Source: Pseudomonadota bacterium (GTDB lineage Bacteria > Pseudomonadota > Gammaproteobacteria > Burkholderiales > Burkholderiaceae_C). Taken from it: 35,651 nucleotides of DNA. Position numbers and translations under genes: made by a program. The notes under the pieces were generated by a model. It was not told where the DNA came from. It saw only the letters and a program-made list of their open reading frames with translations, and did no database searches. Positions within the stretch are counted from its first letter, which is position 1. Each line of letters starts with the position of its first letter. Shown here piece after piece: positions 23,881-27,163 of the stretch. Location: positions 1 through 35,651 of the forward strand of contig JAIUPH010000024.1 in assembly GCA_020161065.1 (NCBI GenBank), given 5' to 3'.

Positions 23881-24825
23881 ATGCGCCACCACCGCCGGTT
23901 TTCGCCCGTCTGGCTGCAGGCGCTGGGGGTCGTGGCCAGCCTGCTCGCCGGGCTGATCGTCGAGCTGTTCGTGGGGCTGTTCGTCGGGCTGATGCCAACA
24001 CCCGTGCACGCGGCCGAGGGGCCGCGCATCACCATCGTCGATGGCGACGCGCTGCTGGTCGACGGCAGCCGCGCCTGGCAGGCCGCCGAAGGCCTGGGCC
24101 TGGGCCCAGCCACCCTCGTGCACACGGCGGTCGGCAGCCGCTTGCTGCGCGTCGAATGGCCCGACGGCACGGCCGCCGACTTCGGCCCCGACACGCAGGC
24201 GATGGTGGCGCCGCCGGCCCTCGGCGGCCGCGCCAAGCCGGCCGCGGTGTACCTGCTGCGCGGCTGGCTGAAGCTCAGCAGCCTGGGCAGCGGGCCTGCT
24301 TCGATGTCCCCGGGCGCCACGACGCCGGCGCTGGAGTTGCTGGCCCACCAGGGCGCGGTGGTGCTGATGGTGGCCGGCGGCGAGACCTGGGCCTTTGCCG
24401 AATCGGGCCGCGCGCCGCTGCAGGAGCGCGAGGCCGCGTCGCCCGCGCGGCCGGTGCTCAAGCCCGGCGAGGTCTACCGGCGCGACGGCCAGGCCGCCGG
24501 CGCCGTGGCGCCGCGGCCGACGCCGGCGCAGATGCAGCGCGTGCCGCGCGGCTTTCGTGAATCGTTGCCCTTGCGGCGCGCCGCCGTCGCCGGCCGCGCC
24601 GTGACGCCGCGCGCCGCGCCGGCGCCGCGCTACGCCGAGTTGCGCGACTGGCTGGTGGCCACCGACCCCGCGTTGCGGCGGCCTTTCGCGCGGCGCTTTG
24701 CCGCCCGCGTGCGCGAGGCCGACTTCCGCAGCGGCCTGCTGGCCGACCTGCCGCGCCACCCGGAGTGGGAGCCGCTGCTGTTCCCCGAACGATCCCCCGC
24801 CAAGCCCGCCACCGCCACCCGCTGA
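23881..24825 (+). CDS. Exported FecR-like protein of unknown function
   Basis: 314 aa. A hydrophobic segment at about 13-38 ending PTPVHA is a signal peptide or anchor. The following beta-rich part (ITIVDGDALLVDG, GDG-like turns, VEWPDGTAADFGPDTQAMV) resembles a FecR domain, which usually senses or transmits envelope signals. The C-terminal third is Arg/Ala/Pro-rich with RYAELRDWLVATDPALRR and has no recognised domain. No strong ribosome site precedes the ATG. It is 24 bp upstream of the haem-sensor gene and in the same direction as the kinase, so the three probably act together. FecR assignment is by pattern only. Confidence 0.65.
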   Translation: MRHHRRFSPVWLQALGVVASLLAGLIVELFVGLFVGLMPTPVHAAEGPRITIVDGDALLVDGSRAWQAAEGLGLGPATLVHTAVGSRLLRVEWPDGTAADFGPDTQAMVAPPALGGRAKPAAVYLLRGWLKLSSLGSGPASMSPGATTPALELLAHQGAVVLMVAGGETWAFAESGRAPLQEREAASPARPVLKPGEVYRRDGQAAGAVAPRPTPAQMQRVPRGFRESLPLRRAAVAGRAVTPRAAPAPRYAELRDWLVATDPALRRPFARRFAARVREADFRSGLLADLPRHPEWEPLLFPERSPAKPATATR

Positions 24826-24849
24826 AGGCCGCGCAGAAAGCCCCATCGC

Positions 24850-25725
24850 ATGAAGCTGCTCGTCAAGTTCAACCTCATCTACGTCGGCGTGATGGCGCTC
24901 GGCCTGGCCGTCAGCGGCCTGATGGCGCGCAGCCTGCTCGTCGACAACGCGCAGGAAGAGGTGCTCAACACCGCGCGCATGCTGATCGACAAGGCCAACG
25001 CGGTGCGCGGCTACACCACCAACCAGATCACCAAGCTGCTGGACACGCAGATGAAGTACGAGTTCCTGCCGCAGTCGGTGCCCAGCTACTCGGCCACCGA
25101 GGTGCTGGGCACGCTGCAGAAGACCTACCCCGACTACCTGTACAAGGAAGCCGCGCTCAACCCCACCAACCCGCGCGACCGCGCGGTCGGCTGGGAGGTC
25201 GACGTGGTCAACCAGTTCCGCGCCAACCCCGATCTGCCGGAATACAGCGGCCGGCGCGAGACGGCCACCGGCGCCTCGATCTACCTGGCCAAGCCGCTGC
25301 GCATCACCAACCCGGCCTGCCTGCAATGCCACAGCAGCGTGGACGCGGCGCCCAAGACCATGGTCGACCGCTACGGCGCGGCCAACGGCTTCGGCTGGAA
25401 CTTCAACGAGGTGATCGGCGCGCAACTGGTCTCGGTGCCGCTGGCGCTGCCGATGCAGCGCGCCGAGAAGTCGTTCAAGGTGCTGATCGGCTCGCTGGTC
25501 GGCGTCTTCGTCGTCGTCGGCATCGTGCTCAACCTGATGATCTGGCTGGTGGTGGTGCGGCCGGTGACGCAGCTGTCGGCGCTGGCCGACCGCGTGAGCC
25601 AGGGCGACTTGGCGGCGCCCGAGTTCCCGGCCACCGGCTCGCGCGACGAGATCGGCGTGCTGGCGGCCAGCTTCTCGCGCATGCGCACGAGCGTCGTGCA
25701 GGCGATGAAGATGCTCGAGCCCTGA
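24850..25725 (+). CDS. DUF3365/Tll0287-type c-haem sensor with HAMP, no output domain
   Basis: 291 aa. TM1 at about 7-28, a periplasmic domain 30-208, TM2 at 210-235 and a HAMP linker 236-285, after which the protein ends. The periplasmic part has the DUF3365 pattern (ARMLIDKANAVRGYTTNQI, YPDYLYKEAALNPTNPRDRA) and a c-type haem motif CLQCH (Cys157, Cys160, His161), placed where Tll0287-like domains bind haem covalently. Related receptors usually continue into a histidine kinase, methyl-accepting or cyclase domain; here no such domain follows. The next gene, 31 bp away, encodes a Ser/Thr kinase that could serve as the missing output. Redox, oxygen or NO sensing is inference from the haem. Confidence 0.88.
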   Translation: MKLLVKFNLIYVGVMALGLAVSGLMARSLLVDNAQEEVLNTARMLIDKANAVRGYTTNQITKLLDTQMKYEFLPQSVPSYSATEVLGTLQKTYPDYLYKEAALNPTNPRDRAVGWEVDVVNQFRANPDLPEYSGRRETATGASIYLAKPLRITNPACLQCHSSVDAAPKTMVDRYGAANGFGWNFNEVIGAQLVSVPLALPMQRAEKSFKVLIGSLVGVFVVVGIVLNLMIWLVVVRPVTQLSALADRVSQGDLAAPEFPATGSRDEIGVLAASFSRMRTSVVQAMKMLEP

Positions 25726-25756
25726 GGGGCGCCTCGGCCCTTTGCAGCGCGCCGCC

Positions 25757-27163
25757 ATGAACCACCCCGAACGCCTGGGCAAGTACCGCATCACCGACGT
25801 GCTCGGCGAAGGCGCGATGGGCATCGTCTACAAGGCCTTCGACCCCGACATCCGGCGCGCGGTGGCGTTGAAGACCATCCGCAGCCAGGTGGCCGACAGC
25901 GGCAGCGCGCAGGCGCGCTTCCGCAACGAGGCGCAGGCGGCCGGCCGGCTGGCGCACCCGGGCATCGTCGCGGTATACGACTTCGGCGTCGATGCCGACG
26001 TCGCCTTCATCGCGATGGAGTTCGTCGAAGGCCACACGCTGGCGCACTACCTGCTGAACCGCGTGCGCTTCACCGACGCCGACATCCCCGGCGTGATGTG
26101 CCAGGTGCTGGACGCGCTGGACCACGCGCACGAGCAAGGCGTGTGGCACCGCGACGTCAAGCCGGCCAACATCATCATGGCCAGCAACGGCCGGCTGAAG
26201 GTGGCCGACTTCGGCATCGCGCGCATCGAGGACACCCAGCTCACGCAGGCCAACGTGATGATCGGCACGCCGACCTACATGGCGCCCGAGCAGTTCCTCG
26301 GCACGCCGATGGACCGCCGCGTCGACGTCTACAGCGCCGGCGTGCTGCTGTACCTGCTGCTGACCGGGCGGCCGCCGTTCCTCGGCAACCAGGAGCAGCT
26401 GACCTACAAGGTGGTGCACGAGGCGCCGCTGATGCCCAGCCAGATCGAGAACGCCGACCGCCCGCGCTTCTACGACGCCATCCTCGCGCGCGCGCTGGCC
26501 AAGCACCCGGACGAGCGCTACGCCAGCGCCGCGGCCTTCAGCGACGCCATCCGCCACGGCGTGGGCCAGCCCTTCGACACCACGGCGTGGGAGCAGACGC
26601 TGGTCAAGGCCGCCGGCCGCATCGCCAAGCCGGCGGCGCCGGCCGCCGGGCGCGCCGGCACCGGCGGCAGCAGCGCCGGCTGGTCGGGCGTGCCGGCGCA
26701 CTGGGACCTGGCGGCGCTCAAGCGCGCCGAGCAGTCGCTGGCCCGCCACGTGGGCCCGCTGGCCGGCGTGATGGTGCGCCGCGCGGCGCGCGAATGCGCC
26801 GACCTGCCGTCGCTGCTGGCGCGGCTGGCCGAGCAGGTCGGCAACCCGGCGGCGCGCAGCGCTTTCGTCGGCGAGACCACCGCGATCATTCCGCGCGGCG
26901 GCGGCGGCGTGGCGCCCCCGAACGCGGCCTCGAATGCACCGCCGCCGGCCGCGGCCGGCAACGCCGCGCCGCTGCCGCAGGCCCTGGTCGACGCCGCGCA
27001 AAAGCTGCTGGCCCAGCGCGTCGGCCCGATCGCGCAGGTGATGGCGCGCAAGGCCGCCGGCCGCAGCAGCGACGCGCAGGCCTTCTTCGTGCTGCTGGCC
27101 GAGCACCTGCCCGAAGGGCCGGCGCGGCAGCAACTGCTGGCCGAGTTGCGCCGGCTCGGCTGA
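25757..27163 (+). CDS. Hanks-type Ser/Thr protein kinase with duplicated C-terminal module
   Basis: 468 aa from ATG 25757; a TTG at 25742 would add five residues. Residues 10-270 are a complete kinase: GEGAMG (17-22), Lys39, HRDVKPAN (131-138), DFG (151-153), GTPTYMAPEQ (170-179). There is no transmembrane segment, unlike PknB-type receptors. After a Pro/Gly/Ala linker, two related 50-55-residue modules appear (about 319-370 and 408-462), each with a V-G-P-[LI]-A-x-V-M-[VA]-R-[RK]-A-A core followed by LLARLAEQ or LLAEH. This resembles the DUF8082 pattern seen in signalling proteins. Being last in the FecR-like/haem-sensor cluster, it probably receives the membrane signal. It converges on alaS (18-bp gap). 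Substrates unknown. Confidence 0.9.
   Translation: MNHPERLGKYRITDVLGEGAMGIVYKAFDPDIRRAVALKTIRSQVADSGSAQARFRNEAQAAGRLAHPGIVAVYDFGVDADVAFIAMEFVEGHTLAHYLLNRVRFTDADIPGVMCQVLDALDHAHEQGVWHRDVKPANIIMASNGRLKVADFGIARIEDTQLTQANVMIGTPTYMAPEQFLGTPMDRRVDVYSAGVLLYLLLTGRPPFLGNQEQLTYKVVHEAPLMPSQIENADRPRFYDAILARALAKHPDERYASAAAFSDAIRHGVGQPFDTTAWEQTLVKAAGRIAKPAAPAAGRAGTGGSSAGWSGVPAHWDLAALKRAEQSLARHVGPLAGVMVRRAARECADLPSLLARLAEQVGNPAARSAFVGETTAIIPRGGGGVAPPNAASNAPPPAAAGNAAPLPQALVDAAQKLLAQRVGPIAQVMARKAAGRSSDAQAFFVLLAEHLPEGPARQQLLAELRRLG

Follow-up and report, generated by a model that had tools for sequence, protein, structure and literature searches.

Receptors that stop after a HAMP domain, have no output of their own and are paired with a partner gene are already known in archaea. 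In Archaeoglobus fulgidus, according to the part of PMC4834066 available to us, HAMP is the sole cytosolic part of the receptor Af1503, and the gene coupled to it encodes the STAC protein Af1502, a stand-alone four-helix domain of 68 residues whose first and second helices flank a GPx(x)A motif and which has no effector. STAC also lies between the membrane part and the kinase of the SLC5-STAC histidine kinases CbrA and CrbS, where it is a proposed coupling element (PMC13022988, PMC5715377). A nine-residue loop between the hairpins has been described for this domain (PMC4834066, PMC5715377), and its role is called unknown or unclear in the portions of text available for PMC5715377 and PMC13022988. 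On the sensor side, a protein of P. azotoformans (WP_033902098; 34.5 kDa) that consists of two transmembrane segments, a haem Cache domain that carries CxxCH and lacks an axial Cys, and HAMP has already been studied; the main text of that paper names no partner for it and contains neither 'operon' nor 'FecR' (PMC12889525). Here we analysed a stretch of 35,651 nucleotides of a Burkholderiaceae_C genome (contig JAIUPH010000024.1, assembly GCA_020161065.1; hereafter the window), in which a gene for an output-less haem receptor is directly followed by a gene for a soluble Ser/Thr kinase with a duplicated C-terminal module. We propose, with a probability of about two in three, that the pair forms a split transmembrane receptor, in which the STAC-like tandem of the separately encoded kinase reads the HAMP end of the receptor in trans.

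The three open reading frames (ORFs) of the operon lie on the + strand at positions 23881–24825, 24850–25725 and 25757–27163, with intergenic gaps of 24 and 31 bp, in agreement with an initial annotation of the window made from the sequence alone. That annotation had described the second product as a two-transmembrane CLQCH DUF3365 receptor that stops after HAMP, and profile matches and hydropathy agree. The receptor (291 amino acids, 24850..25725) matches DUF3365/Tll0287 (PF11845, sCache_heme) over residues 33–197 (E = 1.7e-37; 129.5 bits against a cut-off of 24.1) and HAMP over residues 235–282 (E = 4e-10), its hydrophobic segments span residues 1–31 and 205–243, and the protein stops nine residues after the HAMP match. 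HAMP, together with a short conserved terminal tail, RMRxSxxxAMxML (25552..25725), is its sole cytosolic part, as in Af1503-like receptors, and the size of the P. azotoformans protein likewise leaves little room for an output (PMC12889525). Consistent with this likeness, the best solved match of the HAMP part of our receptor profile (A1) in the PDB was the HAMP domain of Af1503 (E = 1e-10), in an alignment that stops four residues short of the end of the Af1503 chain. The annotation had also taken it as known that DUF3365/Tll0287 domains sit on one-piece receptors with attached outputs; this did not hold, because nearly half of these domains are stand-alone (PMC12889525) and attached outputs are therefore not the rule.

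The third product (468 amino acids, 25757..27163) matches Pkinase over residues 10–255 (E = 4.8e-53; 180.7 bits against a cut-off of 31.7). Its sequence contains GEGAMG, VALKTI, HRDVKPAN, DFGIAR and APE, which we take to be Hanks-type catalytic motifs, and no membrane segment was found on it, as no 19-residue window reaches a hydropathy of 1.6. Its best NCBIfam match was PknB_PASTA_kin, at 292.9 bits, under the 450-bit cut-off of that family. The Hanks-type kinase is what it has in common with one-piece receptor Ser/Thr kinases such as PknB/PASTA and PpkA, but its chain has no membrane segment. Beyond the catalytic part lies a module of about 60 amino acids in two copies (26702..26884 and 26978..27154), which are identical at 20 of 56 residues; the soluble Hanks kinase with a duplicated C-terminal module that the annotation had reported is thus recovered by the Pkinase match, by hydropathy and by two module profile matches. 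Assignment of the module to a known Pfam domain failed, as no Pfam family matched this part of the window kinase up to E = 1; the module parts of relatives gave a sub-threshold DUF2786 match (L022) and scattered weaker ones.

The pairing of receptor and kinase is conserved. Scanning 61 genomes (the window's own and 60 relatives) gave 22 loci with a near-full-length relative of the receptor (L002–L023, the first being the window); full-length matches at G026:C183, G004:C36 and G003:C17 lie outside this set. A kinase relative was present in 21 of them, two of these cut by contig ends, and in the other (L020) the contig ends 63 bases past the receptor. L021 carries a kinase of another type (30% identity) upstream of the receptor, with both modules kept. 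Weaker receptor matches on longer frames, for example L024 (437 amino acids) and L025 (847 amino acids), had no adjoining kinase relative. We also compared the best 80 of at least 561 confirmed stretches, which therefore sample the nearest relatives (Burkholderiales, Rhodocyclaceae and some other proteobacterial records) and overlap the genome samples (L033, for example, with G026:C51). In all 80 an effector gene follows the receptor directly on the same strand, and the module is visible in 78 of these effectors: 74 kinases with at least two module matches, two kinases with one and two cyclase-like proteins with two. Two further kinases have none visible, and all four kinases with one or no visible module (L059, L078, L041 and L105) are cut by contig ends. 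The receptor ends 0–4 residues beyond the profile in every one of the 80 loci, which rules out a frameshifted one-piece receptor kinase. The architecture is not chance, as all 80 nearest loci show it. The annotation had named separation of the genes in related genomes as grounds for giving up its reading; we searched for such separation, and it is not the general case.

Beyond the nearest relatives, 21 of 23 loci with a strong DUF3365-HAMP match in a sample of the class (L112–L133 and L137) adjoin a kinase or a module; the exceptions are a separated pair (L126) and a locus cut by a contig end (L128). Among plasmids, eight of 11 matching records were examined (three from Caballeronia and one each from Paraburkholderia, Skermanella, Rhodovulum, Kovacikia and Rippkaea). 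All six proteobacterial plasmid loci have an adjacent two-module kinase, and the two cyanobacterial records gave no module match; the receptor frame of the Kovacikia plasmid continues well past HAMP, whereas that of Rippkaea does not.

A search that started from the module, independently of the receptor, led back to the same kind of receptor. A module-only profile (A2) matched 39 ORFs, tallied by hand, in 33 of 369 genomes of the class; since in many genomes no more than a portion of the first-look candidates was scored for the module (17 of 106 in the genome of the window, where both module matches fall in the window kinase), module genes may have been missed. Thirty-three of the 39 ORFs, the window kinase included, adjoin an output-less HAMP-terminated receptor, with two ORFs sharing one receptor in each of two genomes. 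The others comprise three at contig ends (G147, G350:C255 and G352:C196), one apart from its receptor, and two spurious matches, to a CorA-like protein (G222) and a 41-amino-acid fragment (G350:C113). With a broader profile in a sample of 398 genomes of the phylum, seven genomes matched; five matches were real (the window's genome and four others), all five adjoining a receptor, and those in G222 and G473 were called spurious.

Both sides of the pair vary. Four receptors among the 33 do not belong to DUF3365: matches above the cut-off were obtained to Pfam dCache_1 in L177, L178 and L179 and to HK_sensor_dom_bact in L178 and L181. Their HAMP domains end 9–18 residues before the stop, and their partners, of 195–224 amino acids, carry the module at the C terminus, behind an N-terminal part that is weakly DUF4388-like or has no assignment. 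Guanylate_cyc matches (E from 1.3e-7 to 6.7e-6) were found in module-bearing partners of L095, L097, L112 and L120. L111 has a single chain that fuses a kinase to a cyclase and bears two modules, and L109 looks by eye like the same fusion, with no Pfam match to a cyclase. Some cyclase-like partners have one module (those of L120, L123 and L171), and others have two. Gene order varies as well, since L095 and L097 have, besides their downstream two-module cyclase-like effector, a module-bearing kinase upstream of the receptor. The constant pair across these swaps of sensor, enzyme and gene order is the HAMP end and the module. The module is kept through them, and through loss of the haem motif or of the haem segment, which is most simply explained if it reads the HAMP end.

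The module could instead serve the kinase itself, through dimerisation, autoinhibition or substrate recruitment, with the receptor acting indirectly or not at all and the genes merely co-expressed. Its position C-terminal to the catalytic part would suit such a role, as would its tandem form in 74 of the 76 downstream kinases with any visible module and the one genome that has both genes 260 kb apart. Against this, HAMP-terminated receptors, the dCache type included, also have cyclase-like, ACT-like and DUF4388-like neighbours that bear the module; most module ORFs (the 33 of 39 above) stand beside such a receptor; and the eight module-less kinase ORFs in 88 loci consist of two contig-cut partners and six that are not the receptor's direct neighbour. 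We therefore hold a role confined to the kinase to be unlikely. The annotation had suggested signalling in trans from receptor to kinase, which the adjacency of the pair in the 80 nearest loci and the receptor-independent module search support; the occurrence of the module on two kinase types, cyclase-like proteins and small partners beside such receptors adds weight to its guess that the duplicated module forms the link.

Structure prediction points to what the module may be. AlphaFold2 models both copies as four helices, with a predicted local distance difference test (pLDDT) of 87 and a predicted template modelling score (pTM) of 0.68 for module 1 and values of 94 and 0.80 for module 2, and in both models the helices form the four-helix bundle of two hairpins that characterises STAC. 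When module 1 was compared with 350,542 PDB chains by Foldseek, both chains of 5a1q (Af1502) ranked first and second (probability 0.91 and 0.89, template modelling score 0.68, E 1.2–1.4), and the next best probability was 0.16. For module 2 the 5a1q chains had probabilities of 0.66, the highest in the list, and 0.47, with a template modelling score of 0.61. An LGPx(x)A-type motif stands between helices 1 and 2 of each copy, VGPLA in module 1 and VGPIA in module 2; across 72 aligned rows the G is invariant, the P and A are each conserved in at least 90% and the first position is V, I or L. Af1502 was the best of nine PDB matches of a broad module profile (A5), and the two align in register across the GPxA turn. 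The predicted fold and the profile thus both point to Af1502, the gene partner of the HAMP-terminated Af1503. The typical nine-residue STAC linker is absent from both models, in which helices 2 and 3 are joined by three residues; because of this, and because similarity to SLC5-STAC is weak, we call the module STAC-like rather than STAC. Like the window pair, the archaeal pair has a receptor that ends after HAMP and a next gene with a four-helix domain carrying the GP motif in the same place (PMC4834066, in part). The window domain differs in being tandem and fused to a kinase, and its sensor is a haem Cache domain in a bacterium. CbrA and CrbS differ in being one chain, with a transporter as input and a histidine kinase as output, and in having the nine-residue loop.

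Several observations weigh against a split receptor read by a STAC-like module. Every Foldseek E-value was above 1, and by E-value the 5a1q chains came only fourth and sixth for module 2 (1.8 and 2.0). The A5 match to Af1502 had E = 0.015 over 25 residues, and with the narrower profile A2 Af1502 (E = 0.2) stood behind seven other matches, the first of which was the 240-residue chain C3HR3_4r (2e-4, with no single stretch passing). Comparison of the module with the STAC of SLC5 kinases by hhalign was weak (probability 21–36%, pairwise P from 4e-4 to 1e-3), aligned the second half only, and included one mistyped row in one of three module alignments; it was set aside as too weak to decide the matter. 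Growth was not obviously altered when STAC was deleted from CbrA or CrbS, as reported in the part of PMC5715377 available. In genomic terms, the receptor and the module-bearing kinase of G345 (L173/L174) lie about 260 kb apart, the output-less receptor of the Rippkaea plasmid (L238) has no module nearby, and an output-less DUF3365-HAMP receptor in L183 has no partner in the 2.4 kb before its contig ends. For a distant receptor of the same kind (L185 4612–7086, G402), the 10 kb retrieved contain no module; its neighbour is a convergent kinase ORF without the module.

If the pair works as a split receptor, the periplasmic sCache_heme domain, which has no Cys axial ligand, would change state on binding a ligand (nitric oxide (NO) being the best candidate) or on a redox change. 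This change would pass through the second transmembrane segment to the HAMP dimer at the receptor's end, where the tandem STAC-like modules of the separately encoded kinase would dock and turn the state of the receptor into kinase activity; the FecR-like protein would be an optional periplasmic accessory. The signal might also run the other way, with a kinase held by its module phosphorylating or gating the receptor, which would then control something else. Sequence does not fix the direction, and the Ser in the tail motif RMRxS is invariant in alignment A1, which would suit this view; the receptor, however, has no other visible output, and several kinds of enzyme domain stand on the module side, which makes this reverse direction highly improbable to us.

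The recurrence of the arrangement with different sensors and outputs suggests a general signalling route for receptors that are cut short. On balance, we lean slightly towards the view that split receptors form a general class in Pseudomonadota, in which HAMP-terminated sensors (haem Cache, dCache and related) speak in trans through a STAC-like 'HAMP reader' whose partners are freely swapped among Ser/Thr kinases of two types, class III cyclase-like proteins, kinase–cyclase fusions and small adaptor-like proteins. Af1503/Af1502 would be the bare form of this class, and the job of STAC would be to read a conformational signal from the membrane side. These pairs bear on two questions, how HAMP-ended receptors signal and what STAC does, which become testable together because enzymes of measurable activity lie beyond the HAMP end. 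In a literature search of partial coverage, which is no proof of absence, we found no link of STAC or of output-less DUF3365 receptors to Ser/Thr kinases.

Some further arrangements were observed in these surveys. The receptor lies between two module-bearing partners in L095, L097, L112 and L114, with a kinase upstream and another protein, cyclase-like in the first three, downstream. Cyclase relatives were found in 78 plasmid records; among the matches listed, the aligned part was the cyclase region and made up no more than 54% of the query. A single in-frame stop, which may reflect an assembly error, a broken gene or a different genetic code, interrupts the receptor of L175 (2–526, G214), and this receptor adjoins an ACT-like protein with the module. 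The receptor of L171 (4315–4935, G324) is without the haem-binding stretch, yet the gene after it again encodes a cyclase-like, module-bearing protein.

The split receptor probably senses NO or redox state. Its c-type haem attachment motif, CLQCH (25318..25332), holds both cysteines of the protein, and haem is expected to be attached covalently there. Across 118 receptor rows, in which L126 and L174 are the same gene, CxxCH occurs once in 117, and 108 have exactly two Cys. This places most of these receptors with the Cys-less P. azotoformans protein, a two-transmembrane HAMP relative without an axial Cys that binds NO tightly (koff, the dissociation rate constant, 6.25e-4 /s; PMC12889525), and not with the Cys/His redox proteins of that family; by this analogy, NO is the leading ligand candidate. 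The same split receptor could be a redox or electron-transfer sensor instead, since stand-alone members of the family behave as redox proteins (PMC12889525). Given that the window protein lacks an axial Cys and has transmembrane segments and HAMP, like the NO-binding protein, we consider a redox sensor possible but doubtful. These pairs are a candidate output for the recently described periplasmic NO-binding haem sensors (PMC12889525). In one receptor, L259 (7150–8247, G751), the haem ligand has been lost naturally, the motif reading CATCY instead of CxxCH; this receptor is among the 108 rows with exactly two Cys, and its adjoining kinase has one module.

Some of the loci lie in or near clusters of the type VI secretion system (T6SS), for which a threonine phosphorylation pathway and TagF are known controls (PMC5995506, in the part available). 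Strict T6SS markers (TssM, TssB/C, TagF and Hcp) were found in the fetched flanks of 10 of the 80 nearest loci (L061, L064, L066, L067, L075, L081, L082, L096, L103 and L106) and in five of the six proteobacterial plasmid loci (L234, L235, L236, L240 and L241). TssH matches in L099, L102 and L107 were excluded because ClpB would match too; the count with them is 13 of 80. This raises the possibility of a gas or redox input to the T6SS in some bacteria, and the window kinase might accordingly be thought a PpkA-like T6SS regulator that receives its input from the haem receptor, a view to which two Caballeronia plasmids add a kinase and a PP2C phosphatase after which come TagF and TssM, encoded on the opposite strand. 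However, the window operon lies between an ABC (ATP-binding cassette) transporter gene and alaS, and the T6SS cluster of its genome is on another contig (G000:C19; L243 and L244), where it includes its own pair of kinases together with PP2C and TagF. The window kinase is therefore not the missing T6SS kinase of this genome, and the T6SS link gives no target here. Strict markers were also absent from 70 of the 80 loci, within flanks of at most 6 kb, and we give little credence to the PpkA-like role.

The first gene of the operon (314 amino acids, 23881..24825) had been described as encoding an exported FecR-like protein. A hydrophobic N-terminal segment (residues 7–44) fits export; neither Pfam nor NCBIfam matched the window protein up to E = 1, and the three of 12 aligned members that match Pfam FecR (PF04773; best 4.5e-7) do not include it. 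A homologue was detected upstream of the receptor in 51 of the 80 nearest loci, a count that may miss diverged copies, and a few of the 80 loci (for example L049 and L073) have almost no upstream sequence. The protein thus stands as an accessory, as the annotation had it, and as an optional one rather than a constant member of the operon. The operon is flanked by a divergent gene for an ABC-transporter binding protein and by the convergent alaS (names read from translations), and the window's genome has one PF11845 match and 18 Pkinase matches in all. On a plasmid of Rhodovulum sp. P5 (L237 3942–4937), the position upstream of the receptor is occupied by a gene for a protein with a peptidoglycan-binding domain instead of the FecR-like gene.

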